From assembly GCF_000421185.1 (NCBI RefSeq), contig NZ_ATWJ01000012.1:124001-188000 (forward strand): a stretch of DNA of 64,000 nucleotides, given 5' to 3'. The stretch comes from Ornithinimicrobium pekingense DSM 21552. Its GTDB lineage: Bacteria; Actinomycetota; Actinomycetes; Actinomycetales; Dermatophilaceae. The notes under the pieces were generated by a model, which was not told where the DNA came from, made no database searches, and saw nothing but the letters and a program-made list of their open reading frames with translations. This document shows positions 10,574 through 61,228 of the stretch, piece after piece; positions within the stretch are counted from its first letter, which is position 1; the number at the start of each line of letters is the position of its first letter. A program made the position numbers and the translations under genes.

Positions 10574-11491
10574 TCAGTCCGCCACGCGCAGCCGCCAGAT
10601 GGCGTCGAGCACGGTCCAGCGCCGGCCGCGCAGGCGCCCGTCGGCGACGTCGCCGTCGGCGTTGACCCTGAACGCGTCACGTGCGGACAGCGCCTCCACG
10701 ACGACCTCGCGCCCCCGGACGACCCGGACGTCGTCGCGACGGGTATGCCGTCCGCGCCGCAGGTCGCGGGCGAAGCCGATCCTGGCCCACGGCGAGGTGC
10801 CGGACGCGACGACGACGTCGGCGAGCCCGTCGTCATGCCGTGCCTCCGGCGCGATGGGGGTGCCCCCGCCGACCGACGACCCGAGGGCGACACTCACCAT
10901 GAGGACCGGGTCGGAACCGTCGACCACCGTGCGCCCGTCGACGACGACGCGCAGGTGCCAGCCACGCCGGGTGAGCCCGGCCCGCAGGGCACCCCAGACG
11001 TAGGAGAGCCGACCCAGCAGGCCCTTGACCTCCGCCGCGTGCGCGGTGGCCTCGGCGGCCACGCCGCAGTGGACGACGTTGACGACGACGTGCCCGTCCT
11101 CGTCGGCCAGCAGCCCGCGCCCGGACGGACGACCGTGGACGGCCACGTCGACCGCCTCCTGCCAGTCGAGCGGGATGCCGGCGTCCCGGGCCAGGTCGTT
11201 GCCGGTGCCCGTCGGCACCAGGCCCACCACCCCGAGGGCGTCCTCCAGCCCCTGGTCCACGACCTCCTGCAGCAGGCGGTGCACCGAGCCGTCGCCCCCG
11301 ACCACGACCACGTCCCGGCCGCCGGCGGTGGCGACCGCCCGGCTGTAGGCCTCGTCGGACCCGGGGTCCTGGACCTCCACCCCGGCCTCGCTGCGCTCCT
11401 CGAGCGCACGGCATACCTGGTCGACCCGCTCCTCCTCGGAGGAGCCGGCGGAGACGTTGACGAGCACCAGCACCGAGCGGTCGGTGGTCAA
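10574..11491 (-). CDS. Diacylglycerol-kinase-family lipid kinase
   Basis: About 305 residues with the DAGK catalytic fold: N-terminal VLVLVNVSAGSSEEERV, the nucleotide loop VVVGGDGSVHRLLQEVV (GGDGS, where most members have GGDGT) and VPTGTGNDLARDAGIP. Such enzymes phosphorylate diacylglycerol, sphingoid bases or polyprenol-type lipids at the membrane. I choose the TTG at 11491 because GGAGG lies 4 bases before it and homology begins there; the open frame runs about 70 codons further but that part is low-complexity arginine-rich. The gene stands alone, 122 bp from its neighbour. Confidence 0.85.
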   Translation of the reverse strand: MTTDRSVLVLVNVSAGSSEEERVDQVCRALEERSEAGVEVQDPGSDEAYSRAVATAGGRDVVVVGGDGSVHRLLQEVVDQGLEDALGVVGLVPTGTGNDLARDAGIPLDWQEAVDVAVHGRPSGRGLLADEDGHVVVNVVHCGVAAEATAHAAEVKGLLGRLSYVWGALRAGLTRRGWHLRVVVDGRTVVDGSDPVLMVSVALGSSVGGGTPIAPEARHDDGLADVVVASGTSPWARIGFARDLRRGRHTRRDDVRVVRGREVVVEALSARDAFRVNADGDVADGRLRGRRWTVLDAIWRLRVAD

Positions 11492-11646
11492 CGTGCCTCC
11501 ATCGGGGTCGCGAACTGCCTGCCCCGTGAGCCTACGCCCGCTGCGGCGGCCGACCGCCCAGGCCCGTTCCGAGGCTCCGCTCCGCGCTACACTCTTTCGG
11601 GCGGGGTGCGACATCCGTTCGGAGACAGGGCGGATGGCATGACACG
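11492..11646. promoter_or_regulatory. Divergent intergenic region, lipid kinase / B12-binding protein
   Basis: 155 bp between oppositely oriented genes. Rightward, TACACT at 11588-11593 is a possible -10 element about 54 bases before the B12-binding protein start; no good -35 is seen, hinting at an activator or an alternative sigma factor. Nothing else recognisable. Confidence 0.3.
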
Positions 11647-12282
11647 ATGGACAGGATGTCTTCACCCACAGCCGCCCGTGCCGGGCTCTTCGCAGCACTC
11701 GTCACCTTCGACGAGGCCGGGGCGGTGCGCCTTCTCGACCACCACCGCGAGCAGGAGGGTCTGGGCTCGCTCGTGGGTGAGCTGGTCCTGCCTGTGATGA
11801 GGCAGATCGGGGAGGGCTGGGAGCGCGGCGAGGTCTCCGTGGCCCAGGAGCACCTGTCCACCCAGCTGGTGCGGTCCTACCTCGACGCGCTGCGGCGTCC
11901 GCCGGTCACCGGCGGGCACCAGGTCTGGCTGGCCTGCCCGCCCCGCGAGCTGCACGACCTGCCGCTGCTCGCGCTGGCGCTGCTGCTGTGGGACCAGGGA
12001 TGGGAGATCCGCTTCTTCGGGGCGAACACCCCGCTGCACGACCTGCTGCGGGCCGTGCGCATCTCCCGCCCCGAGCTCGTCGTCATCTCCGCCGACGACC
12101 CTCGTCGGATGCGTGCCGCCGCCGTGCCGCTGGACCTCATCGCGGCCGAGACGACCCTCGTGCTCGGCGGCCGGGCCGCGGAGGCTGTCGGCCACGAGCT
12201 GGCCGGCAGGGTGCTGCCCCCCGACGTGGTCCTGGCCGCGGAGGAGCTGCGCGAGGCGCTGCCCGCGGCCCGCGCCAGCTGA
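11647..12282 (+). CDS. Stand-alone cobalamin-binding protein with CarH/LitR-type light-sensor signature
   Basis: 211 residues, two domains. Residues ~10-85 are the four-helix B12-cap domain with GEGWERGEVSVAQEH, that is W58, nine residues, then E68-H69: the W-x9-EH pattern of adenosylcobalamin photoreceptors such as CarH. Residues ~90-205 are a Rossmann-like B12 domain; the lower-ligand motif usually read as E/D-x-H-x-x-G is E101-L-H103-D-L-P106, keeping the histidine but with proline for glycine. Unlike CarH/LitR there is no N-terminal MerR DNA-binding domain, so any signal must pass to a partner, as with AerR-type proteins. No neighbour obviously supplies that partner. Confidence 0.8.
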   Translation: MDRMSSPTAARAGLFAALVTFDEAGAVRLLDHHREQEGLGSLVGELVLPVMRQIGEGWERGEVSVAQEHLSTQLVRSYLDALRRPPVTGGHQVWLACPPRELHDLPLLALALLLWDQGWEIRFFGANTPLHDLLRAVRISRPELVVISADDPRRMRAAAVPLDLIAAETTLVLGGRAAEAVGHELAGRVLPPDVVLAAEELREALPAARAS

Positions 12283-12317
12283 CCCGGGACCCCGGCCCAG
12301 GCGGGGTGCGCGACGGC

Positions 12318-12848
12318 TCAGGCGCGGTGCGCGACCCCGAGCGAGCGGGCCCACCCCGCCACGTCCTCGGGCAGCTCCGGTGCGGGCCGCCCGTCCCCGA
12401 GCAGGCCGATCACCTCGGGCGCCGGCACCCGGACACCGCTGCCGCGGGTCAGGAACCGTCCGGCCACCAGGCCGCGGGCGCACAGGTCGTCGCCGCGGGT
12501 GAAGACCTGCTCAAGATAGACCACCCGCTCGTCCCAGCCGACCACCCGGGTCGTGACGTCGAAGCGCTGGCCGAGCGTCAGCGAGCGCCGGTAGGTCACC
12601 GTCTGGGCCGCCACGACCGGGTACCACCCCTTCTGCCTCAGCAGCGGGAAGCCCCCGAGGTCGGCGATGTAGTTGGTCCGCGCGACGTCCATCATCTGCA
12701 GGTAGGTGCCGTTGTTGACGTGCAGGTAGATGTCGAGGTCGGCCGGTCGGACCCGCATCGTGGTCACCGACGGGTCGAGGATCCCCTGTCCGGGGATCGG
12801 CGGTCGCGGGCGGGCGAGGAGACGGACGAGCTGGAGCTGACGGGCCAC
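12318..12848 (-). CDS. Acyl-CoA thioesterase-like hotdog-fold protein
   Basis: About 176 residues with a single hotdog domain: RVRPADLDIYLHVNNGTYLQ contains the aspartate/asparagine active-site region of 4HBT-type thioesterases (D-x-D-x-x-x-H-V-N-N), followed by RTNYIADLGGF and VTYRRSLTLGQRFDVTTRVV. It probably hydrolyses an acyl-CoA. I place the start at the GTG at 12848 because TACGGT lies exactly six bases upstream, the pattern of a leaderless transcript; GTG at 12854 or a TTG at 12935 would be longer but are less convincing. The gene is divergent from the AhpD operon. Confidence 0.78.
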   Translation of the reverse strand: MARQLQLVRLLARPRPPIPGQGILDPSVTTMRVRPADLDIYLHVNNGTYLQMMDVARTNYIADLGGFPLLRQKGWYPVVAAQTVTYRRSLTLGQRFDVTTRVVGWDERVVYLEQVFTRGDDLCARGLVAGRFLTRGSGVRVPAPEVIGLLGDGRPAPELPEDVAGWARSLGVAHRA

Positions 12849-12854
12849 CGGCAC

Positions 12855-12860
12855 ACCGTA
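12855..12860 (-). promoter_or_regulatory. -10 element of a probable leaderless transcript (thioesterase)
   Basis: TACGGT on the minus strand, six bases ahead of the chosen GTG start, fits the TANNNT-N6/7-RTG leaderless arrangement seen at several genes in this window. Confidence 0.5.
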
Positions 12861-12934
12861 GCCGCGCACAGGCGCAGGCCAGCAGATGGGCTCGGTCCCG
12901 CGCCCTTCCCCGTGACCCAACTTGGACTTACCCA

Positions 12935-16382: not shown

Positions 16383-17239
16383 GCCTCTCCGTCACCGACC
16401 TCACCTTCCGCTACGGCCGCCGGCAGATCCTCGACGAGGTCACCTTCGACGTGGCCTCGGGACAGTTCTGCGCGCTGCTCGGGCCCAACGGCTCCGGCAA
16501 GTCCACGCTCGTCAAGGCGATCGCCGGCGTCCACCGCCCCGCGTCGGGCACCGTGACCGTCGACGGCACCGACACCGCGACGCTCGGCCGCCGCGAGCAC
16601 GCCCGCGTCGTCGGCTACGTCCCCCAGCACGGGGACGCCCCCTTCGACCTGACCGTGCGCGAGGCGGTCGTCCTGGGCCGCACCCCCCACTTCGGGCTCG
16701 CCCCGACCACCCAGGACTGGGCCATGGTCGAGGACGCGATCGAGCGGATGGGCCTGGGCGACCTCGCCGAGCGCTCCATGTCCGAGCTCTCCGGCGGCCA
16801 GGCGCAGCGGGCGCTCATCGCCCGGGCGCTCGCCCAGGACACGCGCGTCCTGCTGCTCGACGAGCCGACCAGCGCCCTGGACCTGCGCTACCAGATCGAG
16901 ACCCTGCAGCTGGTGCGGCAGATCACCCGCGAGCAGGGGATCAGCGCCCTCATCGCCATCCACGACCTCAACCACGCCGCCCGCTACTGCGACCAGGTCG
17001 TGGTCCTGCACGGCGGGCACATCCTCACCGACGGCACGCCGCAGGAGGCGCTCGACGCCCCGACGCTGCGCGACGTCTACGAGGTGGACGTCGAGGTGCA
17101 CCTGCGCGAGGGCGTCGTCGAGGTCCGCCCCCGCATCGACGAGCACGGCTACACCCTGACCGGCAGCCAGATCGGCTCGCTCGCCGACGCCCACGTCGCC
17201 TTCGACCCGGCCGACGAGCCGGTGGGGGCGCGCCGGTGA
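16379..17239 (+). CDS. FepC/FecE-like ABC transporter ATPase
   Basis: 286 residues with a full ABC set: Walker A GPNGSGKST, Q-loop in GYVPQHGDAPFD, signature LSGGQAQRALIARAL, Walker B VLLLDEPTSALD and the switch histidine in IAIHDLNHAARY. It powers the FecCD-type permease. The GTG start overlaps the permease stop by 4 bp and its stop overlaps the FAD protein start by 4 bp, so the ATPase sits in the middle of a tightly coupled cassette. Confidence 0.94.
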   Translation: MSLSVTDLTFRYGRRQILDEVTFDVASGQFCALLGPNGSGKSTLVKAIAGVHRPASGTVTVDGTDTATLGRREHARVVGYVPQHGDAPFDLTVREAVVLGRTPHFGLAPTTQDWAMVEDAIERMGLGDLAERSMSELSGGQAQRALIARALAQDTRVLLLDEPTSALDLRYQIETLQLVRQITREQGISALIAIHDLNHAARYCDQVVVLHGGHILTDGTPQEALDAPTLRDVYEVDVEVHLREGVVEVRPRIDEHGYTLTGSQIGSLADAHVAFDPADEPVGARR

Positions 17240-19152
17240 CGGCCCGGTTCGACGCGGTCCTCGTCGGCGGGGGCCCGCGCGCCGTCGCCACGGTCCTGCG
17301 CACGGCCGCACGCACCGAGGGTATGCCGTTGCACCTGGCGGTGGTCGACGCCCTCGAGGTCGGGGCCGGGGCCACGTGGCTGACCAGCCAGCCCGCGGCA
17401 TACCTCAACAACACCCAGGCCCGGGCGACGACCATCCACCCCGACGCCTCGACGCCGATGAGCGGGCCGCCCGCGCCGGGACCCGACCTGCTGCAGTGGG
17501 CCGCCGACGTCACCGCGGCGGGCACCCACCCCTTCGCCGACTGGGTGGTGGAGGAGGCGCGCGGCCTGCGTCCGGAGGACTTCCCGACCCGGCGGCTGCA
17601 GGGGGTCTACTTCCGCGACCAGCTCGACGCGGCCGTGCGGAGCGGCCGGGTCCGGGTGACCGAGGTGCTCGGGACGGTCGTCGACCTGCAGCGGGACGCG
17701 GAGGACACCGTCGTGGTCCTGGCCGGTGGCGACCGGCTCGCCGCACCGACCGTGGTGCTGGCCCAGGGGATGGTCCAGGCCCGCCCCTCCGCCGAGGTGA
17801 CCGCCCTGAAGAGCTTCGCCGAGCGGCACGACCTGCGCTACGTCGAGCCCGGGATGCCCGCCGAGCGCGACTTCACGGGCCTGCCGGCCGGCGAGACCGT
17901 GCTGGTACGCGGGCTCGGCGCCACCTTCTTCGACGTCGTCGGCGAGCTGGTGGCCGAGTGGGGCGGCGGCTTCGAGCCCGTGCCGGGCGACCCGCACGGG
18001 CGGCTGCGCTACCTCCCCGGCGGGGCCGAGTCCCGGCTCGTCGCCGGCTCCCGTCGGGGTCTGCCCTACCGCTCCAAGCCGGACGGCGGCACGCCGCTGC
18101 GCCCGTTCGAGCCGCGCTGGGCGACCCCGGAGTGGTTCGACGCGCTGGTGCAGCGGGGCGGCCTCGACTTCGCCCTGGACGCCTGGCCGACCGTCGCGCG
18201 CGAGCTCGCCCGCGCCTACCTGGAGGCGCTCGAGGAGTATGCCGTCGGTGCCGTCCGGGGCGGGTGGCTGGCCCGCCTCGACGCGGCCGCGGACCTGGCC
18301 GACGTCGAGCAGGTGCTCGCCGATGCCGTCATGGACCCGCGCTGGGCGTGGCAGGTCGACCATCTGCGCCGGCCGACGGGCGGCCGCGCCGTCGACGGGG
18401 CGGGGTGGGAGCGCCTGGTCGGGCGGCTCGTCGAGGACGAGCTCGGCTCGATGAGCCGGGCGGACGTCCACCCGCGCGCCGCCGTCAACGGGGCCATGGG
18501 TGCCCTGCGCGACCGGGTAGCCAGCGCCGGGGTGGCGGGTGCCTTCACCGGCGTCTCGCTCGTGCGCGACGTGCACGGCTGGTTCGACGCCGACGGGCTC
18601 TTCCTCGCCTCCGGCCCGCCGGCCCATCGCGTGCGTGAGGTGCTCGCGCTGGTCGAGGCAGGTGTGGTGGAGCTGCTCGGCCCAGAGCTCACGGTCGCCG
18701 TGGACCCGGACCGGAAGGTCTTCCGCGCGTGGTCCCCGATCACCGGCCGGGTGGTCCGGTCGCGGGTACTGCTCGAGACACGCATGTCGAAGGGCAAGGT
18801 GCCGGACACCGACGACCCGCTGCTGCGCAGCCTGCTCGACAGCGGCCGGGCGCGCATCCACCGGGTGGACGGTGCGCCGACGGCGAGCCTGGAGGCCACC
18901 GCCGCGGTCGTGGACGAGGAGGTGGACACCGGTCACAACCTGGTCGCCGCCGACGGCACGGTCGACAGCTCGGTGGTCGTCGTCGGCATCCCCGTGCAGA
19001 GCACCCAGCCCGGCAGCGCGATCGGCGCCACCCCCGGGGTCCCGTCCCCGCTGCTCGCCGGGGCCGACGTGGCGGCCAAGCAGGTCGTGGCACGGGCCCG
19101 CGAGCGCCGAGGGGCACGGCTGCGCGACCTGGAGGCCGTGGCGGGCCGCTGA
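17236..19152 (+). CDS. Large FAD/NAD(P)-binding protein
   Basis: 638 residues. The N-terminus is a dinucleotide fold with VLVGGGPRAVATVLRTA (G-x-G-x-x-x-A-like) of the NAD_binding_9 type, followed by AYLNNTQARATTIHPDAST and a long region with several further FAD-contact segments (VVGIPVQSTQPGSAIGATPG near the C-terminus). No catalytic signature I can name. Being translationally coupled to the importer ATPase, it may reductively release iron from, or modify, the imported ligand; that is inference. No signal peptide, so it acts in the cytoplasm. Confidence 0.7.
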   Translation: MTARFDAVLVGGGPRAVATVLRTAARTEGMPLHLAVVDALEVGAGATWLTSQPAAYLNNTQARATTIHPDASTPMSGPPAPGPDLLQWAADVTAAGTHPFADWVVEEARGLRPEDFPTRRLQGVYFRDQLDAAVRSGRVRVTEVLGTVVDLQRDAEDTVVVLAGGDRLAAPTVVLAQGMVQARPSAEVTALKSFAERHDLRYVEPGMPAERDFTGLPAGETVLVRGLGATFFDVVGELVAEWGGGFEPVPGDPHGRLRYLPGGAESRLVAGSRRGLPYRSKPDGGTPLRPFEPRWATPEWFDALVQRGGLDFALDAWPTVARELARAYLEALEEYAVGAVRGGWLARLDAAADLADVEQVLADAVMDPRWAWQVDHLRRPTGGRAVDGAGWERLVGRLVEDELGSMSRADVHPRAAVNGAMGALRDRVASAGVAGAFTGVSLVRDVHGWFDADGLFLASGPPAHRVREVLALVEAGVVELLGPELTVAVDPDRKVFRAWSPITGRVVRSRVLLETRMSKGKVPDTDDPLLRSLLDSGRARIHRVDGAPTASLEATAAVVDEEVDTGHNLVAADGTVDSSVVVVGIPVQSTQPGSAIGATPGVPSPLLAGADVAAKQVVARARERRGARLRDLEAVAGR

Positions 19153-33221: not shown

Positions 33222-34135
33222 ACGACATGATCCCCGGCTTGCCGGCCCTCGGGGCGCTGCTGGCCTTCCTCATCTTCGTCGCCGGGCTGCGGATGGTGCG
33301 CAGCGACGTCGTCGACGGTCTCGACGCGGGCGACCTGCGCCTCCTGCAGGAGGAGCGTCAGCGCGAGGCGCGCGGCCAGCTCTCGCTGCTGGAGCGGCTC
33401 GGCGGCCGGCTCGTGCCGGTCCTGCGCCGCCTGCTGGACGGCCCGGCCCTGCGCTGGCTCAGCCGCCTCATCCACTACGCCGGCCGCCCCCGGGGCATCA
33501 CGGTCGACTCCGTGCTGCGCCGCGTCGGCGGCTGGCTGGTGCTGATGATCCCGCTGTCGGTCCTGCTGGTGGTCAACGGGCTGTGGTTCCTCGCCCCGCT
33601 GGTTCTGGTCCTGGCGTTCGTGATGCCGGTGTCCGGCCTGGCGGGCACCGCCAACCGGCGGCGCGAGGAGATCGACGCGGACCTGCCCGACTTCCTCGAC
33701 ATCCTCGCCGTCACCGTGACGGCCGGCATCGCCTTCCGACCGGCCCTGCGCCGGGTCGCCTCCCGCTTCGGCGGGGCGCTCGCCGAGGACGTCAACCTTG
33801 CGCTGGACCAGCTGCTCCACGGCGCGAGCGTGCGGGACGCCTTCGAGCAGATGCGCGACCGGTCGACGTCGGTGATGATGGACCGCTTCGTCCGCGCCTT
33901 CCTCCAGGCCGAGGAGCTCGGCGCCCCGCTCGCCGAGACGCTCAACCAGATCGCCCTGGACATGCGACGCGACAACGCCCAGCGGCTGCGCCAGAAGGCC
34001 GGCCAGGCCGCGCCCCGGGTGACCCTCGTCGGCTCGACGGTGCTGGTGCCCGCGGCCCTGATCCTCATCCTCGTCGGCGCGTTCTTCGGCATGGACTTCG
34101 ACATCGACCTGGGGGCGATCCTCGGTGGCTTCTGA
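33218..34135 (+). CDS. tadC: TadC inner-membrane platform protein
   Basis: 305 residues, second F-family platform protein. Membrane helix at the N-terminus, a helix pair around 105-140 (VLMIPLSVLLVVNGLWFLAP), the cytoplasmic domain DADLPDFLDILAVTVTAGIA and RFVRAFLQAEELGAPLAETL, and a C-terminal helix. GTG start overlaps tadB by 4 bp; its 3' end overlaps the histidine kinase by 11 bp, linking machine and regulator genes in one transcript. Confidence 0.93.
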   Translation: MNDMIPGLPALGALLAFLIFVAGLRMVRSDVVDGLDAGDLRLLQEERQREARGQLSLLERLGGRLVPVLRRLLDGPALRWLSRLIHYAGRPRGITVDSVLRRVGGWLVLMIPLSVLLVVNGLWFLAPLVLVLAFVMPVSGLAGTANRRREEIDADLPDFLDILAVTVTAGIAFRPALRRVASRFGGALAEDVNLALDQLLHGASVRDAFEQMRDRSTSVMMDRFVRAFLQAEELGAPLAETLNQIALDMRRDNAQRLRQKAGQAAPRVTLVGSTVLVPAALILILVGAFFGMDFDIDLGAILGGF

Positions 34136-35303
34136 CTCGCGGGCCCAGGACCCGCACGTGCTGAGCGACACGAGCTACCTCAAGGTATGCCGTTCGCTCT
34201 TCGCCTTCCGCCTGCTCGCGTGCTCGCTGACCGCCGCGCTGTCCCCCTCGGCGAGCACGCTCGCCGCAGCGTTGCTGCTGCTCTCCGCGGTGATCAGCGC
34301 CTGGGCGATGCTCGACAACCGGTTCGTGCGCGGTTACTTCCGCCACCCGCTGCTGGTGGGCCTGGACCTTCTCGTCATCGTCCTGTACCTGTCCGTGGAC
34401 TGGCCGGCCGACCTGGGGCTGCTCGTGCTCGCCGTGTCGGCCATCGTCATCGGCCTGACCCTGACCCCGTGGCTCAGCCTGCCCGGCCTGATCATGCTCC
34501 TCGGCTCGGTGATCGTCCTGGGCTCCGGCAGCACGGAGCCCTGGCCGGTGAGCAGCACGCTGGGCCTGGCCTGCGCCCTCGTCGGCTCGACCGCCCTCGG
34601 CTGGACGATCCGCCACGCCTTCGTCGAGCTGCAGCTCTCCCGCGACCTGATCCTGGCCGAGCGGGTCCGACTCTCCGAGGAGGCCGAGCGGGCGCGGCTC
34701 GCCCGAGCCATGCACGACTCGCTGGGCAAGACCGTCAACGGCATCAGCCTGGCGGCCAGCGCCCTGCAGTCGGCGGCGACGAGGCGGCCGGAGCAGGTGG
34801 CCACGATCGCCCGGGACCTCGAGGCGGCCAGCCGCGTCGCGGCCGACGAGTCCCGCACGCTCCTGCGGGCGCTGCGACGCCACCAGGTCGACCGGCCCCT
34901 CGCCGAGCAGCTGGGCGAGCTCGCCCGTTCCTACGCCACCCCCGGCCGGCAGGTGCGCACCACCGTGGCGGGCATCGCCGACCTCCCGCCCGACCAGGCC
35001 GAGGAGGTGGTCTGCATCGTCGCGGAGGCGCTGGAGAACGTCGAGCGGCACGCGTCGGCGACGACGGTGGACGTCCGCCTCCGGCACGAGGACGGCGTGC
35101 TCGTGCTCACCGTCACCGACGACGGCAAGGGCTTCGACCTGCGCTCCGTGCCCGCTCGCGAGCGCCAGGGCCACTTCGGCCTGCGCGGGATGCGCGAGCG
35201 GGCCGAGCGGACCGGGGGCCGGGTCCGGATCGACAGCGCCCGAGGCCGGGGGACCACCGTCGAGGCACGGTGGCAGATGGCCCAGACGGAGGTTTCGCCA
35301 TGA
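34125..35303 (+). CDS. NarL-type sensor histidine kinase of the Tad locus
   Basis: 392 residues. About five membrane helices occupy residues 25-165 with only short loops outside, so the signal is probably sensed in the membrane. Then a HisKA_3 dimerisation domain with H197 in ARAMHDSLGKTVNGI and an HATPase domain (EALENVERHASATTVDVRL, DDGKGFDL, GLRGMRERAERTGG). The GTG start lies 11 bp inside tadC. It is coupled to the response regulator that follows; the pair sits directly upstream of the flp promoter and is the obvious candidate to control it. Confidence 0.9.
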   Translation: MASDSRAQDPHVLSDTSYLKVCRSLFAFRLLACSLTAALSPSASTLAAALLLLSAVISAWAMLDNRFVRGYFRHPLLVGLDLLVIVLYLSVDWPADLGLLVLAVSAIVIGLTLTPWLSLPGLIMLLGSVIVLGSGSTEPWPVSSTLGLACALVGSTALGWTIRHAFVELQLSRDLILAERVRLSEEAERARLARAMHDSLGKTVNGISLAASALQSAATRRPEQVATIARDLEAASRVAADESRTLLRALRRHQVDRPLAEQLGELARSYATPGRQVRTTVAGIADLPPDQAEEVVCIVAEALENVERHASATTVDVRLRHEDGVLVLTVTDDGKGFDLRSVPARERQGHFGLRGMRERAERTGGRVRIDSARGRGTTVEARWQMAQTEVSP

Positions 35304-39668: not shown

Positions 39669-40958
39669 TCATGCTCGTTCCTTCCTGGGCGGGGTGGTGA
39701 CGCGGCGCTCGGCCGGCTGTCCGGCGACCTGCTGCTCCCGCTCCACCTCCAGCGTGAACCCCTGCTCCCGGAGCGCCTCGACCAGCTCGTCGCCGATCGC
39801 GACGGCGGGCGTCAGGACACCGCCCTGCCCGGCGCTGCCGGCGCGGCGGGTCGCGAGCAGCACCAGCGCCGCCTGGCCGAGCATGACCGAGGTGGCCGCA
39901 TACCCGGGGTCGCCCTGGGCGGCGACGGTGGCGGCATACCCCGTGCCGTCCTCGGTGGTGGTCCGCGTCTCCATCCGGAACCAGCCCTGCTCGCGTCGCT
40001 CCCGGCTCGGGCCGTCGCCCGGCGCCGGCAGCACACGGTCGACGAGCCGTCGCAGGCCCGGCGTGGCCAGGCCCGCGCCCAGCGCACCCAGGCCGGCCAT
40101 GACGGCGGCGGCCCGGACCGCGCCACGGACGCCGCGCCCGGTCGTCATGAGCTCGCGGTAGCGGAAGCGCGGCCCGTAGCCGAGGCCGGTGAGGGCGTGC
40201 GAGCGGCGCACGACGCGCGTGTTGTAGGGCCCCATGAAGAAGGGCACGACCCAGCGGCCGGTGCCCTCCTCGACGAACGGCCGCCACGGGTCCTCCTGCC
40301 CCGGCGCGCCGCTGACCCCGCCCGAGAGCGCCTCGGGGTCGCGCATCACGCGCCCGGCCGAGGGGTCCTCCCGCAGCTGCTGGACCATCACGCGCATCGA
40401 GTCGACCGTCCCCCCGCTGACGCCGCCCCGGGCCCGGGCGAGGAGCGTGGTGTCGGTCAGTCCCCCGGCCCCGTCGGCCTCCGCCGCCCGGTGCAGCAGA
40501 TGGACGGCGAGGTCGGAGGGGACCGAGTCGAAGCCGCACGAGACGACCAGCCGTGCCCCGCTCGCCCGGGCGGTCTCGTGGGCCCGCTCGATCGCCTCGC
40601 GCACGAAGAGGGTCTCCCCGGTCAGGTCGGCATAGTCGGTGCCCCCCTCCGCGCACGCCTCGACCAGGGGTATGCCGTGGCGCTGGTAGGGCCCGACCGT
40701 GCTCACCACCACCCGGGCGCGGTCCACCATCCGGCGCAGGCTCTCCGCGTCGGAGGAGTCGGCCACCACGACGGGCCAGTCGGCCGCGCGCCCGCCCAGC
40801 CCGGCACGCAGCTGCCGCAGCCGCTCCTCCGAGCGCCCGGCGAGCGCGACCACCACGTCGGGCGGAGCCACCCGCGCGAGGTGCTCGGCGACGAGGCGGC
40901 CGACGAACCCGGTCGCTCCGAACAGGCATACGTCCACGTCTCGGTCCATGCCTGCCAT
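39669..40958 (-). CDS. Saccharopine-dehydrogenase-like / trans-acting enoyl reductase family protein
   Basis: About 429 residues. N-terminal NAD(P) site VCLFGATGFVGRLVAEHLA, then VSTVGPYQRHGIPLVEACAE, GTDYADLTGETLFVREAIE and VVSCGFDSVPSDLAVHLL, the conserved order of this family, which includes mycobacterial trans-acting enoyl reductases for wall lipids. A helical membrane-associating stretch lies around 290-320. The ATG at 40958 is chosen; another at 40949 is close. Divergent from whiB3. Substrate unknown. Confidence 0.8.
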   Translation of the reverse strand: MAGMDRDVDVCLFGATGFVGRLVAEHLARVAPPDVVVALAGRSEERLRQLRAGLGGRAADWPVVVADSSDAESLRRMVDRARVVVSTVGPYQRHGIPLVEACAEGGTDYADLTGETLFVREAIERAHETARASGARLVVSCGFDSVPSDLAVHLLHRAAEADGAGGLTDTTLLARARGGVSGGTVDSMRVMVQQLREDPSAGRVMRDPEALSGGVSGAPGQEDPWRPFVEEGTGRWVVPFFMGPYNTRVVRRSHALTGLGYGPRFRYRELMTTGRGVRGAVRAAAVMAGLGALGAGLATPGLRRLVDRVLPAPGDGPSRERREQGWFRMETRTTTEDGTGYAATVAAQGDPGYAATSVMLGQAALVLLATRRAGSAGQGGVLTPAVAIGDELVEALREQGFTLEVEREQQVAGQPAERRVTTPPRKERA

Positions 40959-41393: not shown

Positions 41394-42104
41394 TCAGCCC
41401 GTCCTGAGCAGCAACCAGCCGCCGGCGAGCAGGCACGCCACGCACACCAGCCAGAACAGCCCGACCCACAGCACGGCCGGCACACCGGTCAGCCGCGCGA
41501 GCTGGTCGGCGTCGCTGTCGCTCCGACGGCGCAGCACCTGGCGCCGCCCCCGCTGCAGACCTACGACGGCCCGCGGCGCGGCGAGCAGCAGCGACCAGAC
41601 CACGAGGTAGGCGGCGGCCGAGAGCACCGGCGGCGAGGCGCTCCACGACAGCGCGGCCACCGCTGCCCCGGTGGCGAGCACGACCCACAGCCCGTAGAGG
41701 TTGCGCACGAGCAGGAGCAGCACCGCGCAGGTGAGCACCAGCGCCCAGAGCCAGCCGGCGGCATACCCCTGCCCCACCAGCGCGGCACCGCCCAGCCCGA
41801 CGAGGGCGGGCGCGGGGTAGCCGGCGGCGAGCATCGTGACCATCCCCGGTCCCCGGGTCCGTCCGTGGGAGACCGTGAGGCCGGAGGTGTCGGAGTGCAG
41901 GCGGATGCCGCTGAGCCGGCGCCCGCCGAGGGCGGCGACGAGCGCGTGGCCGGCCTCGTGCAGGAGCGTCACGAGGTGCCGCACGAGGCGGTGGCCGAGC
42001 GGGCTCCAGGTGACGACCAGCGCGGCGACGGCCAGGGCGAGGGCCCACGTCCACGGCAGCGGCGGCTGGGTGGTCGTGGCGCGCTGCCACAGGTCGACGA
42101 TCAC
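41394..42104 (-). CDS. M50-type (site-2 protease-like) integral membrane metallopeptidase
   Basis: About 236 residues with six or so membrane helices. The zinc motif H49-E-A-G-H53 sits in the second helix (LVTLLHEAGHALVAALGG), as in the M50B-like family; LSGIRLHSDTSGLTVSHG follows. These proteins may cleave within the membrane, but the usual downstream N-x-x-P-G/D-G motif is not seen, so activity is uncertain. I start at GTG 42104 (MIVDLWQ); TATCCC lies six bases upstream, a weak leaderless-type -10. Divergent from the GNAT gene. Confidence 0.75.
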   Translation of the reverse strand: MIVDLWQRATTTQPPLPWTWALALAVAALVVTWSPLGHRLVRHLVTLLHEAGHALVAALGGRRLSGIRLHSDTSGLTVSHGRTRGPGMVTMLAAGYPAPALVGLGGAALVGQGYAAGWLWALVLTCAVLLLLVRNLYGLWVVLATGAAVAALSWSASPPVLSAAAYLVVWSLLLAAPRAVVGLQRGRRQVLRRRSDSDADQLARLTGVPAVLWVGLFWLVCVACLLAGGWLLLRTG

Positions 42105-47520: not shown

Positions 47521-48090
47521 GTCCGCCGCCCCCGTGGGCTCCCCGCGCCCCGGGGCCGACGTGGCGAGCTGGTCGGGCAGCCCGCTCCAGCGCCCGCCCG
47601 TGCCACGGAGCGTGACGCGCCGCTCCTGCTCGTCCCCCGCGTCGCTGCCCGAGCGCTCCAGCACGACGTCCAGCCGGTCCTCGGCCAGGTGCTCGGCGAG
47701 GCCGTGGCCCCACTCCACGACCGTCACCGACTCCTCCAGCGAGGCGTCCAGGTCGAGGTCGTCCAGCTCGGCCGTGCCGCCCAGCCGGTAGGCGTCCACG
47801 TGCACCAGGCCGGGACCGCCGACCAGCGAGGGGTGGACGCGGGCGATGACGAAGGTCGGCGAGGTGATCGGGCCGCGCACCCCCAGGCCCTCGGCCAGCC
47901 CCTGGGTCAGCGTGGTCTTGCCCGCGCCCAGGTCGCCGGTCAGCACGACGAGGTCGCCGCCACGCAGCACGCGCCCGAGGGCTCGGCCGAGGGCCTGGGT
48001 GTCCCGCGCCGTCGGCAGCACGCGGTCCACCTCCACGGCGGCGCCCCTGCCCCCCGTGCCGTCTGCGGTCCCGGACCCGTCGACGCTCAT
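47518..48090 (-). CDS. tsaE: TsaE, tRNA threonylcarbamoyladenosine pathway ATPase
   Basis: 190 residues. P-loop LVVLTGDLGAGKTTLTQGLA, then GPITSPTFVIARVH, LVHVDAYRLGG and VTVVEWGHGLAEHL, the standard TsaE order. It helps TsaB and TsaD make t6A37 on tRNAs that read ANN codons. In many actinobacteria alr-tsaE is followed by tsaB-rimI-tsaD; here the next gene is a tyrosine phosphatase, so the partners must lie elsewhere. Start overlaps the alr stop by 4 bp. Confidence 0.92.
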   Translation of the reverse strand: MSVDGSGTADGTGGRGAAVEVDRVLPTARDTQALGRALGRVLRGGDLVVLTGDLGAGKTTLTQGLAEGLGVRGPITSPTFVIARVHPSLVGGPGLVHVDAYRLGGTAELDDLDLDASLEESVTVVEWGHGLAEHLAEDRLDVVLERSGSDAGDEQERRVTLRGTGGRWSGLPDQLATSAPGRGEPTGAAD

Positions 48091-49262
48091 GCGGCCCCTC
48101 CGACGTGCACCCGCGGCACCCGGGGGCCGAAGCGGGTCACGATCTCGTAGCTGATGGTCCCGGCGGCCTCGGCCCAGTCCTGCGCCGTCGGCTCGCCGTC
48201 GTCGCCGGCCCCGAAGAGCACGACCTCGTCACCGGCCTCGACCGGCAGGTCACCCACGTCCACGACGAACTGGTCCATGCACACCCGCCCGGCGATCGTG
48301 CACCGCCGCCCGTGCACCTGGACGGGCGCCGCGCCGGAGGCGTGCCGGGGTATGCCGTCCGCGTAGCCGAGGGGCACGTCGGCCACCGTGGTCTCGCGGG
48401 GGGCGACGTAGGTGTGGCCGTAGGAGATGCCCTGACCCGCCGGCACCCGCTTGGCGACCGCCACCCGGGCGGTCACCCGCATCGCGGGCCGCAGCCCCAG
48501 CTCGGCGGCGGAGGCGATGTCCGGCACCGGCGAGAGCCCGTAGACGGCCAGGCCGGGACGCACCATGTCCCACGCGGCCTCCGGGGTGGTCAGCGTGGCC
48601 GCCGAGTTGGCCATGTGCCGCACCTCGGGACGCAGGCCCGCACGCTCGGCGACCGCCACCGCGTCCGCGAAGGCCTCCTGCTGGGCACGCACCGTCGGGT
48701 GCTCGGGGGCGTCGGCGTAGGCGAAGTGGGTGAACAGGCCGCGGACGCGTAAGGCGCCCTCGGCCTCGAGCGACGCGGCCCGCCCGACGAGGTCGACCCA
48801 GTCGGTGCGCGGGTCACCGTCCCGGACGGGCAGGCTGAGGGCGCCGTTGCGCCCCAGGCCGGTGTCCGCCTTGAGCTGCACCGTCGCGGTGCGCCCGGTG
48901 GCGCGCGCCGCGGCCACGACCGCGTCGAGCAGCCAGGGTGCGGAGACCGCCAGCTCCACGTCGGCGTCGACCAACGGGGTGACGTCGGTGCCGGGCGCGA
49001 CCAGCCAGGTGAGCAGGGGTGCCTCGACCCCGGCGGACCGCAGCGCCAGCGCCTCGGTCGGCTGGGCGACACCCAGGGCGCAGGCGCCGCCCGCGAGCGC
49101 CGCCCGGGCGGAGGGGACGAGCCCGTGGCCGTAGGCGTCCGCCTTGACCACGGCCATCAGCTCGGTCCCACCGACCCGTTCCCGCAGGGTCCGGACGTTG
49201 GCCGAGATCGCGTCGAGGTCGACCGTGACCCGGGCCGGCCACAGGTCGAGGGCGCCCGTCAT
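48087..49262 (-). CDS. alr: Alanine racemase
   Basis: 391 residues. The PLP lysine is K40 in MAVVKADAYGHG; LKADTGLGRNG, HMANSAATL, RPGLAVYGLSP, the catalytic-tyrosine region GQGISYGHTY, and the C-terminal beta domain GRVCMDQFVVDVG are all present. Makes D-alanine for peptidoglycan. The ATG overlaps the leuB stop by 4 bp and its stop overlaps tsaE by 4 bp, so leuB-alr-tsaE is one coupled unit. Confidence 0.95.
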   Translation of the reverse strand: MTGALDLWPARVTVDLDAISANVRTLRERVGGTELMAVVKADAYGHGLVPSARAALAGGACALGVAQPTEALALRSAGVEAPLLTWLVAPGTDVTPLVDADVELAVSAPWLLDAVVAAARATGRTATVQLKADTGLGRNGALSLPVRDGDPRTDWVDLVGRAASLEAEGALRVRGLFTHFAYADAPEHPTVRAQQEAFADAVAVAERAGLRPEVRHMANSAATLTTPEAAWDMVRPGLAVYGLSPVPDIASAAELGLRPAMRVTARVAVAKRVPAGQGISYGHTYVAPRETTVADVPLGYADGIPRHASGAAPVQVHGRRCTIAGRVCMDQFVVDVGDLPVEAGDEVVLFGAGDDGEPTAQDWAEAAGTISYEIVTRFGPRVPRVHVGGAA

Positions 49263-52693: not shown

Positions 52694-52711
52694 AGGGCCG
52701 GCTGCTGCTGA

Positions 52712-55306
52712 CTACTCCTCGGGGGTGGCCCAGAAGATCGCCTGACCGATCTGGCTCTGACCGCCCTTGGGGTGCGTGCGGAAGGTCGGCGACGTGCCGA
52801 ACACCACCGCCCGGCCGCCGTCGGCCGACTCGCCGGAGATGACCGAGGCGTTGCCGCCGGCCGCCGTGGGGCCGTCGCCGGCGCCGGTGTCCACCCAGTG
52901 GCCTGCCAGCAGCGGGTTGCCCTCGGCGTAGGTCTGCTCGGCGCGCGTGCCCTCTCCCAGGCCGGTGTACCACTGCGCCGGGTAGATGAAGGCGTGGTCC
53001 TGGGCGTGGTCGGCCAGGATCGACCCCTCCGGGGTGTCGACCGCGACGATGCCGTTGCCGCTGCGGTTGCCGTCGACGGCCGTCGCCGACACCAGGCCGA
53101 AGGCGGTGGCGGCGTCGAAGGCCCCCGTGCCCTCGCCGACCAGCGCGTGCCCGTCGGCGAGCCAGGCCTCGGTGACCGCGCGACCGTTGACCTGCGCCTC
53201 GTCGAAGTTGAGGCTCGCCCCGAGCCAGAGGACGTCCAGGTCGTCCAGCGACGTCGTGCCGTCCTCGATCGTCGACGTCGACACCTGGACCGGGTCGAAG
53301 CCGAGCTGGAGCAGCGTGTGCAGGTCGTCCTGGTCGCCGGTGTAGCCGATCTCGACCTCGTCCAGCTCCTTGGCGTCGCCGGAGCGCACCTCGCGCACCT
53401 CCGACCGCCTGGCCTCGCGGAAGGCGATGTCGTGCTCCTCGGCCACCCTGGCCGCGAGCCGGCGCGAGTCCCGGCCGACCAGGGCGCGGCCCGAGTCGAG
53501 CAGCCAGACGTCGGCGTCCTCCTCGAGCAGGGCGTTGAGCGCGACGTAGTCGCCCACGCCCGCCACCTCGAAGGTCACGTGGTCGGCCCGCCTGGGGAAG
53601 TCCGCCTGACGGGTCGGGCGGTCGACGCGCTTGGTGCCGCGGACCGGGCCGTCGGTGACGTCCCCGACCTTGTGCACGGTGGCGCCCCACAGGTAGGAGT
53701 AGCTCCAGGCCGAGATGTCGTACATCGTCGGGACCTTGTCCGAGATGTCGCTGCCGAGATCGAGCAGGGCGTTGGCCAGGGCGCGCTTGGACTGGGCCAT
53801 GTCGACCACGTAGGAGCCGCGCTCGTAGCGCGTGCCGTCGATCCGCGCCGGGCCGCCCAGCCGGCGCACCTCGATGTCGTGCAGCAGCAGCTGCTCGACC
53901 AGCGCCGTCGCGTCGCTGACCGAGCGCTGGTCCTCGCCCATCGGGATGACGTAGGCCCGCGGCAGCTCGACCGGGTCCTGGTCGTCGGTGACGTCCCACA
54001 GCGGCTTCCACTGGTCCGGGCCGGGGACCTCGTCGATGTTCTCCAGCGTCAGCGGGGTCTTGGGCTCCCCGGACAGCGCACGGCGGAAGAACTCGATCTG
54101 GTTGTCCAGGATCTCCTCGTCGTGCTCGTGCAGGTAGTCCACGGTCGTGCGGATGACCTGCTCGGCGACGGCGACGTTGGTCGCTGCCCGCTCCGGGGTC
54201 TGCCGGCCGTCGGTGCGCCCCAGGGGAAGCTCGACCGTGCTGGTGAGCGCCCCGTAGAACGCGGCGTACTGCGCCGTGAAGATCGGCGGGTAGTCGTCCC
54301 AGCCCGAGGGGGTGTCGCGGTAGGGGATCTTGATGCCGTCAGCGTCGGTCAGCGGGTTGCCCGGGATGTCCGCGGCGACGACGTCCTCCTCGATCTGCAG
54401 GGCCAGGGCGTAGTTGTGCGGGATGAACAGGTCGTACTCGTAGTTCTCCCCGTGCGGCGGGCCGGTCGGCTCGACCTGCAGCTGCCCGGTGTAGCCGTGG
54501 ATGTCCGAGGCGTAGAGCGCCAGCAGCGACTGCGCGGTGCGCACGAAGGACTCCGACTCCGGCGTCACGTTCGTGATCATGTCGCGGTTCTCGTCGAAGT
54601 TCAGGGCGGTGCGCCGCTGCCCCAGGTAACGACCGTCCGGGTTGAGCGTCAGGGAGAAGTAGAGCCGGTGCCCGGTCAGCAGGTCCTCGACCTCCTCCCA
54701 GGGTGCCGTCGCCAGCTCCTCGATGTAGCGCAGCGAGGCGTCGGTGCCCTCCCACTCGTTGCCGTGGATGTTGGCGGAGAACCAGACCGGCGTCTTGTAG
54801 TCCCGCTGCAGCTTCGTGTCGCGGGCCGCCTTGCGGGGCTCGTGCTGGATCATCTCCCGGTATGCCGTCTGCCGGCGCGTCTCGTGGCGCCGCTCCGGCG
54901 CGGTGACGGTCACCAGGTACAGGTCCCGGCCGTTCGTCGACTGACCGACCACCTGCACCGAGACCCGGTCGCTGCTGGCCATCAGCTCGTTGAGGCGCGG
55001 GGCCAGGTCGGCGTAGCCGACGAGGTCGCCGGCGTAGGAGGCGTCGGCCGGGTCGGGGTCGAAGACGCGCAGCTCGGGCTGGTAGGGGTAGGAGCTCGGC
55101 ATGTCCAGCCCTGCCGGGTCCTGCTTCGGGGCGCGGGGGCCACGCTCGCCCTTGTGGTGCGCCGGGCCGGCGCTCTCCGAGCCACCCTTGCCGTTGCCGT
55201 TGCCGCGCACGGGGTCGGAGGTGGCGGTGGGCGCGACGGCGAGCGTCAGCGCCAGCGACGAGGCCAGCGCACCGACCACGGTGCGCCGCTGCGGGGTGAG
55301 TGGCAT
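52712..55306 (-). CDS. Secreted M14 zinc carboxypeptidase
   Basis: 864 residues. Signal peptide MPLTPQRRTVVGALASSLAL with a twin-arginine (RR-T-V-V) look, cut near residue 30. Catalytic domain ~85-400: zinc ligands H181 and E184 (SANIHGNEWEGTDAS) and H270 (DIHGYTGQL), LNPDGRYLGQRR and NFDENRDM for substrate binding, catalytic glutamate in TSTVELPLGR. About 450 further residues form two or more C-terminal domains of unknown role. A clean ribosome site AGGAG precedes the ATG. Probably digests peptides or peptidoglycan fragments outside the cell. The gene is alone. Confidence 0.88.
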   Translation of the reverse strand: MPLTPQRRTVVGALASSLALTLAVAPTATSDPVRGNGNGKGGSESAGPAHHKGERGPRAPKQDPAGLDMPSSYPYQPELRVFDPDPADASYAGDLVGYADLAPRLNELMASSDRVSVQVVGQSTNGRDLYLVTVTAPERRHETRRQTAYREMIQHEPRKAARDTKLQRDYKTPVWFSANIHGNEWEGTDASLRYIEELATAPWEEVEDLLTGHRLYFSLTLNPDGRYLGQRRTALNFDENRDMITNVTPESESFVRTAQSLLALYASDIHGYTGQLQVEPTGPPHGENYEYDLFIPHNYALALQIEEDVVAADIPGNPLTDADGIKIPYRDTPSGWDDYPPIFTAQYAAFYGALTSTVELPLGRTDGRQTPERAATNVAVAEQVIRTTVDYLHEHDEEILDNQIEFFRRALSGEPKTPLTLENIDEVPGPDQWKPLWDVTDDQDPVELPRAYVIPMGEDQRSVSDATALVEQLLLHDIEVRRLGGPARIDGTRYERGSYVVDMAQSKRALANALLDLGSDISDKVPTMYDISAWSYSYLWGATVHKVGDVTDGPVRGTKRVDRPTRQADFPRRADHVTFEVAGVGDYVALNALLEEDADVWLLDSGRALVGRDSRRLAARVAEEHDIAFREARRSEVREVRSGDAKELDEVEIGYTGDQDDLHTLLQLGFDPVQVSTSTIEDGTTSLDDLDVLWLGASLNFDEAQVNGRAVTEAWLADGHALVGEGTGAFDAATAFGLVSATAVDGNRSGNGIVAVDTPEGSILADHAQDHAFIYPAQWYTGLGEGTRAEQTYAEGNPLLAGHWVDTGAGDGPTAAGGNASVISGESADGGRAVVFGTSPTFRTHPKGGQSQIGQAIFWATPEE

Positions 55307-56918: not shown

Positions 56919-56919
56919 C

Positions 56920-59508: not shown

Positions 59509-59536
59509 CCCGACGCCCGTCGGCCCGCGGCTGACG

Positions 59537-59590
59537 GACGCACAGCACGCGCCAGGTGTGGCCTCCCGCCACGCCTGGCGCGTCTGCGTC
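59537..59590. terminator. Hairpin after the ring-opening amidohydrolase
   Basis: Inner stem of 16 pairs with one T-G wobble (59547-59562 with 59568-59583), loop CTCCC; outer stem of 6 pairs (59537-59542 with 59585-59590). Lies between convergent genes. Strong terminator candidate for the rightward gene. Confidence 0.65.
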
Positions 59591-59598
59591 GGAGGCGA

Positions 59599-59608
59599 GG
59601 TATGCCGT
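59599..59608 (+). repeat. Intergenic copy of the dispersed decamer GGTATGCCGT
   Basis: The only non-coding copy among the eight plus-strand occurrences I found in this window (others begin at 10742, 17320, 34184, 40669, 48349, 54859 and 60996; one minus-strand copy at 11408-11417). Confidence 0.6.
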
Positions 59609-59661
59609 CAGGCGCGGGGCGCACCTGAGCGCGCCGGGCCGGCCCCCTCGCCACCACATCC

Positions 59662-59724
59662 GCCGAGTGCCCCACTTCCGTCGGCCGGGGACGTCTCCGG
59701 CCCGACGGAAGTGGGGCACTCGGC
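59662..59724. repeat. Palindromic intergenic repeat, copy 2
   Basis: Perfect 23-bp inverted repeat (59662-59684 with 59702-59724) around a 17-base centre that can itself pair CCGG with CCGG. The arms begin GCCGAGTGCCCCACTTC, shared with copy 1 at 44,141 apart from one base. Between convergent genes, so it probably ends the leftward amidase operon as well. Confidence 0.75.
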
Positions 59725-59797
59725 ACGCTTGGTCGTGGGCGGGACCGGGTCGTGGGCGTGAACCGGGTCGTGGGTGGAGCGGGTCGGCGGGCGCGGC

Positions 59798-61228
59798 CTA
59801 CAGCTGCGGCGCACGCTCCGCATACCGCGTGGCGCGCTCGTAGACCCGGGCCAGGCGCAGCAGGCGGTCGTCGGACCAGGGGGCGCCGACGAGCTGCAGG
59901 CCGACGGGCAGGCCGTCGACGAAGCCGCCGGGCACCGACACGGCGGGGCAGCGGGTCGCCGAGACGAGCGAGCAGGAGCGCATCCACTCCACGTAGGTCT
60001 CCAGCTGCACGCCGTCGATCTCGCGCGGCCACGTCTCCTCGGTGGGGAAGGGCATGACCTGCACCGTGGGCGTCAGGAGCAGGTCGTGCTCCCCGAACCA
60101 CCCACGGACCGCGGCGTCGAGCCGGCCACGCGCCTCGGCGGCCGACATCAGCTGCTCGGCGCGCAGCTCCAGCCCGCGGCGGACGTTCCAGACGACGTCC
60201 TCCTTCACCAGCCCGTCCTCGGTGTGCTCGCGCACCAGCCGGCGCAGGTTGGTGGCCATCTCGAACGCGCGGTAGACGTCGAAGACCTCGTCGGCGTCGG
60301 TCAGCCGCGGCGCCGACTCCTCCACGGTGGCGCCGAGAGAGGCCAGGACCTCGGCCTGCTCGAGCACCGCGCGACGCACCTCGGGCGCCACCGGCACGCC
60401 GACACCGAGGTCGACGCTCACGCCCACCCGGACCCCGCGCAGGTCGTCGGGGCCCTCGTCGTCCAGCAGGGCCAGGAAGGACCCCGGCGCGACCGGGCTG
60501 GGCAGGGGGCCGTCCGGGTGCGGCCCGGCGACGACCGACATGCCGAGGGCGAGGTCGTCGACGCTGCGGGCCATGAGGCCGTTGCGGCTCAGCCACGCCT
60601 CGGGGTTGGCGGCCGGCACCGTGGGCACGACGCCCGGGCTCGGGCGCAGCCCGACGACGTTGCACCACGCCGCGGGGTTGCGCAGCGAACCGCCCATGTC
60701 GGAGCCGTCGGCGAGCGTCTGCATGCGCGCGGCGAGCGTGGCTGCGGCACCGCCGGAGGAGCCGCCGACCGAGCGGTCGGTGTCGTAGGGGTTGCCGGTC
60801 GCGCCGAAGACCGGGTTGAAGGTGTGCGAGCCGGCGGCGAACTCGGGCACGTTGTTCTTGCCGGTGCAGATGACGCCGGCGTCCCAGAGCCGCTGGACCA
60901 CCAGGTCGCTGTGGCCCGGGACCTGCTCGGACAGCAGCGGGGAGCCCATGGTGGTGCGCACGCCCGCCGTGGCGTGCGTGTCCTTGTGGGTCATGGGTAT
61001 GCCGTGCAGCGGGGGCAGCGCGCTCCCGCCGGCGGCCCGGCGGTCGGCCTCGTCGGCCGCGGCCAGCGCCTGCTCGGCGACCACGGTCACGACGGCGTTG
61101 AGCGCCGGGTTGACCCGCTCGACCCGGGCGAGGTGGTCCTCGACCACCTCGCGGGCGCTGACCTCACGGGCGTGCAGCCGGTCGCGCAGCTCGACGAGAC
61201 CGAGCTCGTGCAGGGCGGTGGCGGTCAC
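59798..61228 (-). CDS. Amidase-signature family hydrolase
   Basis: 476 residues with the Ser-cisSer-Lys triad: K82 in GIPMTHKDTHATAG, the GGSSGG loop (S157/S158) in DRSVGGSSGGAAATLAARMQ, and S181 in DGSDMGGSLRNPAAWC. Family members hydrolyse amides, ureido acids or allophanate. In this cluster it could cleave the ring-opened ureido acid (as N-malonylurea hydrolase does after barbiturase) or a carbamoyl product. The GTG at 61228 overlaps the DUF1116 stop by 4 bp, so it belongs to the fdrA-DUF1116 operon. Confidence 0.85.
   Translation of the reverse strand: MTATALHELGLVELRDRLHAREVSAREVVEDHLARVERVNPALNAVVTVVAEQALAAADEADRRAAGGSALPPLHGIPMTHKDTHATAGVRTTMGSPLLSEQVPGHSDLVVQRLWDAGVICTGKNNVPEFAAGSHTFNPVFGATGNPYDTDRSVGGSSGGAAATLAARMQTLADGSDMGGSLRNPAAWCNVVGLRPSPGVVPTVPAANPEAWLSRNGLMARSVDDLALGMSVVAGPHPDGPLPSPVAPGSFLALLDDEGPDDLRGVRVGVSVDLGVGVPVAPEVRRAVLEQAEVLASLGATVEESAPRLTDADEVFDVYRAFEMATNLRRLVREHTEDGLVKEDVVWNVRRGLELRAEQLMSAAEARGRLDAAVRGWFGEHDLLLTPTVQVMPFPTEETWPREIDGVQLETYVEWMRSCSLVSATRCPAVSVPGGFVDGLPVGLQLVGAPWSDDRLLRLARVYERATRYAERAPQL

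Follow-up and report, generated by a model that had tools for sequence, protein, structure and literature searches.

A highly repeated DNA word in Ornithinimicrobium pekingense and its relatives resembles DNA uptake sequences

A 64-kb stretch of the genome of Ornithinimicrobium pekingense DSM 21552 (source genome G000, C12:124001-188000; hereafter the window) contains nine copies of one decamer, GGTATGCCGT, with an 8-base core, GTATGCCG, which raises the question of what makes a single short word so frequent. A first-pass annotation of the window had listed eight copies on the plus strand and one on the minus strand, and all nine were located. In 100 dinucleotide shuffles of the window the decamer occurred 0.02 times on average and at most once, and among the window 10-mers with at least six copies it had the highest ratio of observed to expected occurrences (9 vs. 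0.57 under an order-4 Markov model). We consider GGTATGCCGT to be, probably, a DNA uptake sequence (DUS) or a word similar to an uptake signal sequence (USS), spread by biased natural transformation.

The excess extends over the whole genome. In 452 kb of the source genome (the window plus further stretches), 76 copies were counted vs. 0.49 expected, a ratio above 100. The complete assembly (3,852,644 bases in 15 contigs) contains 467 copies (241 forward, 226 reverse); extrapolation from the 452-kb sample predicts about 4, and a control with the reversed pattern found no copy across the genome. The word is not palindromic, since it differs from its own reverse complement, and apart from a weak tendency to be preceded by G and followed by G or C it has no preferred flanks. 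Because it is short, isolated and devoid of conserved flanks in this genome, it is not a transposon or a repetitive extragenic palindromic (REP) element. Some positions are tolerant: any base occurs at position 7 (9 to 11 copies each vs. 0.2 to 0.4 expected), G (16 vs. 0.52) and A (4 vs. 0.1) are allowed at position 8, and C is allowed at position 10 (17 vs. 0.95). Four minus-strand copies of a related form, GGTATGCCGC, were found where they had been claimed. The copies in the window are as follows.

10742..10751, plus strand, GGTATGCCGT, inside a diacylglycerol-kinase-family gene (10574-11698, minus strand)
11408..11417, minus strand, GGTATGCCGT, on the sense strand of the same diacylglycerol-kinase-family gene (10574-11698, minus strand), forcing a GTA valine codon
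17320..17329, plus strand, GGTATGCCGT, in a FAD-NAD(P)-binding protein gene (17236-19152, plus strand)
34184..34193, plus strand, GGTATGCCGT, close to the start of an open reading frame (ORF) at 34125-35303 (plus strand)
40669..40678, plus strand, GGTATGCCGT, in a region with an ambiguous gene model
48349..48358, plus strand, GGTATGCCGT, in an alanine racemase gene (48087-49262, minus strand), at a conserved YADGIPR motif with a rare ATA isoleucine codon
54859..54868, plus strand, GGTATGCCGT, in a zinc carboxypeptidase gene (52712-55306, minus strand)
59599..59608, plus strand, GGTATGCCGT, outside the genes called by a simple script
60996..61005, plus strand, GGTATGCCGT, in an amidase ORF with a Pfam amidase domain (59798-61843, minus strand; missed by the simple gene caller), forcing an ATA isoleucine codon
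17395..17404, minus strand, GGTATGCCGC variant
39931..39940, minus strand, GGTATGCCGC variant
41758..41767, minus strand, GGTATGCCGC variant
61837..61846, minus strand, GGTATGCCGC variant

The first-pass annotation had also argued that the word forces rare codons and is a signal in DNA rather than a consequence of protein constraint. Codons read by hand in Pfam-supported genes agree with it for ATA at 48349 and 60996, GCA at 54859 and GTA at 11408; the rare codon claimed at 34184 holds given the ORF 34125-35303, and at 40669, where ATA was claimed, the gene model is ambiguous. At 13 other loci the isoleucine codon of the YADGIPR motif is ATC seven times, ATT twice, replaced by a valine codon three times, and ATA once (in Cellulomonas). 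In 259 trusted ORFs of the source genome (119,402 codons), the core contains 21 of the 42 ATA codons and 42 of the 106 TAT codons. Synonymous-codon shuffling of 372 genes, obtained with a crude caller that called 68% of bases coding, left a mean of 3.75 decamers and a maximum of 6 (20 shuffles) vs. 65 observed. The genome-wide excess, the codon shuffles and the ATA and TAT usage together strongly support the view that GGTATGCCGT is imposed on DNA and not on protein.

The distribution of the word was determined in genomes around Ornithinimicrobium. By alanine racemase, the nearest named loci are from Ornithinimicrobium (78%), Flexivirga, Knoellia and Phycicoccus. We take the GTDB family of the source genome to be Dermatophilaceae; NCBI taxonomy places Ornithinimicrobium in Ornithinimicrobiaceae. 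At least 50 copies of GGTATGCCGT (up to 555) were present in 29 of the 59 genomes of a family sample; 28 others had at most 18, and the remaining two had 33 and 35. Within the genus, 29 of the 30 genomes counted (a 31st, G200, was left out) carried 57 to 659 copies, and G193 alone had 4. No genome among 111 from 19 other families of the order exceeded 11 copies. In pooled loci, the core was without excess in Streptomyces, in Arthrobacter and relatives, in Mycobacterium and relatives and in four further groups, and Cellulomonas loci had 2 cores vs. 0.4 expected. Within the genomes sampled, GGTATGCCGT is thus confined to one family, near Ornithinimicrobium.

Several family genomes in which GGTATGCCGT is missing or rare have a related word instead, as found when words were counted de novo in 25 further genomes of the family (40 or 80 kb each). 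The word GTATGCCGCTG reaches 882, 561, 545 and 198 copies in four genomes of the family sample, and none of the remaining 55 has more than 81. In G015, one of its parts, GTATGCCGCT, was counted 24 times in 80 kb vs. 0.06 expected, and the consensus of this dialect (L079-L082, L114) extends over about 16-18 bases, roughly GCCGTATGCCGCTGGGCTC, which exceeds the decamer of the source genome. CGGATGCCG is frequent in G026 (48 in 80 kb vs. 2.95 expected) and GGATGCCG in G001 (20 in 40 kb vs. 3.5), and GTATGACG occurs alongside GTATGCCG in G027 and likewise in a Flexivirga locus. The dialects of these sister genera, GTATGCCGCTG, CGGATGCCG, GGATGCCG and GTATGACG, share an ATG-N-CG core. In the 40 or 80 kb sampled from each of G002, G008, G009, G010, G013, G014, G037, G041, G045, G049, G057 and G058, no dialect word was found. 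G019 showed a weak excess of GTATGCCG (6 vs. 1.2 expected). A further candidate dialect, GTACGCCG, considered for G019, G023, G024, G040 and G048, was rejected as background, being raised about twofold in Nocardioidaceae loci too.

Other frequent words were noted in passing. CGTGCCACTC in G003 (L206-L207; 15 in 40 kb, 0.16 expected), TCCCCCTTCG in G037 (L089-L090; 10 vs. 0.16), CCATCGGCGCCA in G049 (L202-L203; 9 vs. 0.02) and the palindrome GACGTACGTC in G024 (L095-L096; 12 vs. 0.17) could represent repeats or signals of another kind. Loci from Arthrobacter, Pseudarthrobacter and Sinomonas (L176, L180, L182-L184, L191, L192, L195) showed strong over-representation of CGCCGTCG (217 vs. 52) and CGACGGCGGC (66 vs. 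8.4), counts that are inflated because the loci are orthologous.

Presence of the motif was mapped on a ComEC tree with 59 rows. The analyst gave motif labels to 58 of them (G053 was left out); 14 rows were labelled as having none, including G024, G028 and G040 with 0 or 1 GTATGCCG in the sample. The trait required 6 changes vs. a mean of 12.6 and a minimum of 8 in 200 shuffles, and outside the genus (30 rows) 5 changes vs. 9.9 with a minimum of 6. As the motif trait follows the ComEC tree, it is inherited. G001, with GGATGCCG, and G044, with 175 decamers, share one clade of this tree, which suggests that the word was re-spelled there. Root-to-tip ComEC length was 1.22 for motif-less rows and 1.02 for the others.

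Individual sites are not specially kept between species, as far as such small numbers can tell. In an alignment of about 37 kb (13,524 + 23,545 bases) between the source genome and its congener G047, none of 8 sites was identical, nor any of 3 in the reverse direction, with 14% for control 10-mers. The first-pass annotation had named counts near the Markov expectation, or a lack of both orientation bias and site conservation, as observations that would speak against its reading. Orientation bias (see below) and conservation of the 8 aligned sites were indeed lacking, the genome-wide excess was to the contrary, and this excess, together with the family restriction and the dialects, points to a system with site turnover, such as uptake sequences, and not to chance.

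The word is under-represented in acquired DNA, as seen in one prophage and in one island, the latter chosen as motif-poor. The prophage, of about 40 kb, is inserted in comEC of G172 and encodes a tail tape measure, tail proteins and an exonuclease; the 40 kb spanning it contain no exact GGTATGCCGT vs. 4.6 expected from host density (P 0.0097), and 3 cores. An IMG/VR record with an identical tape measure (21.8 kb examined) and three more distant records contained no GGTATGCCGT. The island lies on C7 of the source genome, where five stretches (100 kb) had 5 cores vs. 28 expected. It lies at about 240-380 kb of that contig (L019, L271, L272, L020, L273) and mostly has a lower GC content (0.65-0.70 in four of the five stretches). 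Its genes include an extracellular contractile injection system (eCIS), a primase-polymerase, an Mrr nuclease, a member of the DNA gyrase A family, caspase-domain proteins and a NACHT protein that weakly matches Avs, and judged by these predicted genes the content looks accessory.

Genes for ComEC and Tad pilins are nearly universal in the family sample. ComEC was found in 56 and TadE-type pilins in 58 of the 59 genomes, and a simple pattern identified a ComEA-like ORF at 24 of 36 comEC loci, at motif-bearing and motif-less loci alike. Excerpts of a review describe the machinery of Micrococcus luteus as Flp pili with ComEA and ComEC (PMC6370729), and from gene content machinery of this type appears to be available in the family. 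The presence of type IV pilin, ComEC or TadE was tried as a family-wide discriminator of motif status and did not discriminate in the 59 genomes. In G193, the congener with 4 copies of GGTATGCCGT in its assembly and no GTATGCCG in 81.8 kb, the ComEC match is limited to residues 13-373 of the 786 compared. Beyond it lie 155 bases without a match and then the contig end, and a family search did not find the second half in the assembly. G185 was considered as a second case of competence loss and dropped because its clade has the same motif density.

Inserts in comEC were seen in three genomes. They lie in G172 (the prophage described above; C1:1161102-1202035; L311, L312, L301, L306; about 40 kb), in G188 (C46:68443-109701, about 40.5 kb) and in G049 (C1:2175993-2204556, about 28.5 kb). 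Those of G172 and G188 interrupt ComEC near residues 256-270 (of the 786 compared), and that of G049 falls in the corresponding part of the Pfam domain. Judged from these loci, the comEC region is a recurrent integration target in a predicted competence gene. Mobile elements that disrupt competence genes have been described in transformable species, according to the part of PMC4774983 available.

Among the explanations raised for the word, a chromosome-polarity or segregation motif and a recombination hot spot had figured in the first-pass annotation, which considered the decamer strand-biased. KOPS (FtsK-orienting polar sequences) and Chi sites are, like GGTATGCCGT, dispersed and over-represented short words that overlap genes, and they are strand-polarised relative to replication. 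The 8:1 ratio in the window (two-sided binomial p 0.039) would fit such a motif, as would uneven strand totals at p<0.05 in 4 of 56 enriched genomes. That ratio proved to be a local fluctuation: strand counts are balanced in the source genome, strand runs are random on its contigs C1, C2 and C7 and on a 2.88-Mb contig of G035, and 4 of 56 is about the chance level, contig orientation being arbitrary in such totals. The strongest of the 56, G199 (286/213, p 0.0012), lies beyond chance expectation. In the single 3.92-Mb contig of G197, 100 of the 193 forward copies fall within the first 1.9 Mb, with reverse copies interspersed (5 among 16 copies in 60 kb, in stretches chosen for dense forward copies). 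Unlike KOPS and Chi, GGTATGCCGT is therefore not strand-polarised, which removes KOPS-like and oriented Chi-like readings, and it is nearly absent from many sister genera; we regard a polarity or recombination motif as very improbable. To an artefact of composition or codon usage, or a mobile repeat, we give almost no credence. High-GC genomes are rich in over-represented words, and GTACGCCG proved to be background-like, but the more than hundredfold excess, the codon shuffles and the empty reversed control speak against an artefact, and the lack of conserved flanks in the source genome against a mobile repeat.

Two readings in which the word is recognised inside the cell deserve more weight. 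If a nucleoid or chromosome-organising protein bound the word specifically and required numerous scattered copies, its sites would likewise be dispersed, unoriented and scarce in acquired DNA. Known sites of such proteins are usually fewer or palindromic, and loss and re-spelling among close genera would not be expected of them, nor the lack of any shared site among the 8 compared between congeners, nor a congener without the word (G193); we hold this reading to be unlikely. The word may instead be the site of an orphan methyltransferase or of a host-mark system, as proposed for the highly iterated palindrome HIP1, with methylated copies serving repair, regulation or self-marking. HIP1 is a clade-wide, highly repeated short word for which orphan methyltransferases have been put forward as a functional clue (PMC4390886, in excerpt), and dialects could track changes in methyltransferase specificity. 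A non-palindromic word tolerant at positions 7 and 8 would be unusual for a single methyltransferase site, and a truncated comEC in G193 is not predicted by methylation; this explanation, too, seems improbable to us. An intracellular reader of either kind is conceivable because most of the evidence, the single comEC case apart, demonstrates no more than a word at the DNA level on which drive or selection acts.

A short, unoriented, isolated and family-restricted word with dialects, turnover of sites, scarcity in acquired DNA and transformation genes in its hosts resembles the uptake sequences of transformable bacteria. Molecular drive by biased uptake can explain such words without a function at the site itself (PMC7811141, from the text available). 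From this resemblance and the gene content we infer competence, preferential uptake, a pilus as the uptake machine and a receptor. Cells of the lineage would be naturally transformable through ComEA, ComEC and a pilus of the Tad/Flp type, and a putative DNA-binding component at the surface would prefer double-stranded DNA with words of the GTATG-N-CG type. Fragments that bear the word would be taken up and recombined more often, so that copies would accumulate by molecular drive where their cost is low. Sites would turn over between species, and shifts in receptor preference would give rise to dialects. DNA acquired recently would carry few copies, and the word would decay once competence is lost.

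Several observations weigh against an uptake sequence or weaken the case for it. The type IVa minor pilin domain (N_methyl, PF07963) was detected in only 2 of the 59 family genomes and not in the source genome, and this is the class of the known, ComP-type DUS receptor. The USS receptor was still unidentified in 2016 (PMC5031613) and only predicted in 2025 (PMC12616744), as far as the consulted portions of both papers go, so an uptake-tag system need not have a ComP. Most motif-less family genomes retain a full-length ComEC match, and comEC therefore fails to separate motif-bearing from motif-less genomes over the whole family. For G193, the link is a single observation made in an assembly of 230 contigs, with the break 155 bases short of a contig end. 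The ComEC of G185 carries an in-frame deletion (residues about 347-485), yet this genome has 127 copies, within the 117-199 of its clade, and G172 and G188, with comEC split by inserts of about 40 kb, still carry 483 and 496; we read these inserts as probably recent or reversible. With about 120 copies per Mb, the word is less frequent than the DUS of Neisseria meningitidis, for which the literature excerpts give roughly 1900 per genome. Inverted pairs within 60 bp were hardly in excess, numbering 24 vs. 19.6 expected in nine genomes, 12 of them convergent, whereas DUS are commonly paired. The count of 0 of 8 shared sites is too small to fall below the 14% of the control, the C7 island was selected because it is motif-poor, and a low-GC stretch (L028) was not clearly depleted, with 3 cores in 20 kb. 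Scarcity in acquired DNA also fits any chromosomal word that has accumulated slowly.

Among known systems, the decamer can be set beside the DUS of Neisseriaceae, which are, in the sections of PMC3630211 available, short, non-palindromic, over-represented and family-restricted words with clade dialects. The Neisseria AT-DUS, ATGCCGTCTGAA, shares ATGCCGT with GGTATGCCGT, and there is a near match between ATGCCG(T)CTG and the GTATGCCGCTG dialect; the likeness is probably a coincidence. Phylum, cell envelope and probably pilus type differ from those of the family studied here, 57 of the 59 family genomes lack a type IVa pilin signature, and inverted pairs are not clearly enriched. USS have an extended motif, as does the GTATGCCGCTG dialect. 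Those of Pasteurellaceae further resemble GGTATGCCGT in having a nine-base core that is repeated genome-wide, under-represented in new segments and ascribed to molecular drive (PMC7811141, same excerpt). Their core, AAGTGCGGT, is unrelated, their hosts are Gram-negative, and their uptake has been shown experimentally, whereas that of GGTATGCCGT is putative. HIP1 occurs in cyanobacteria at a higher density than GGTATGCCGT. It is likewise clade-wide, highly repeated and debated in function, and unlike GGTATGCCGT it is palindromic and linked to orphan methyltransferases, according to the excerpted literature.

In the passages available from three papers (PMC5031613, PMC7811141, PMC3630211), uptake tags are attributed to two families, the Pasteurellaceae and the Neisseriaceae. 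The open-licence PMC literature yielded no report of an uptake tag in Actinobacteria/Actinomycetota or Intrasporangiaceae, and the string GGTATGCCGT occurs there in 12 papers, judged by titles and the starts of abstracts, by chance (in primers and the like).

If the word is an uptake sequence, it would be the first such tag found outside Neisseriaceae and Pasteurellaceae, as far as the open-licence literature goes. A wider picture, which in our estimate could equally prove right or wrong, is that of an old, family-wide competence system with GTATG-N-CG self-recognition through a machine that is not of type IVa but of Tad/Flp type, independent of Neisseria and Haemophilus and the first sequence-tagged uptake in Actinomycetota, with at least four spellings acting as mating barriers between genera and a conflict with prophages that insert into comEC. 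Should the word not serve uptake, a family-wide word that holds half of the sampled ATA codons (21 of 42) would still need explaining. If it does, a third, Gram-positive case with clear dialects would allow the evolution of uptake tags, by drive or by selection for self-DNA, to be studied in an independent replicate, and it would point to sequence recognition by a Tad/Flp-type pilus. Adding the tag to DNA would then offer a simple genetic tool for the actinobacteria of this family.

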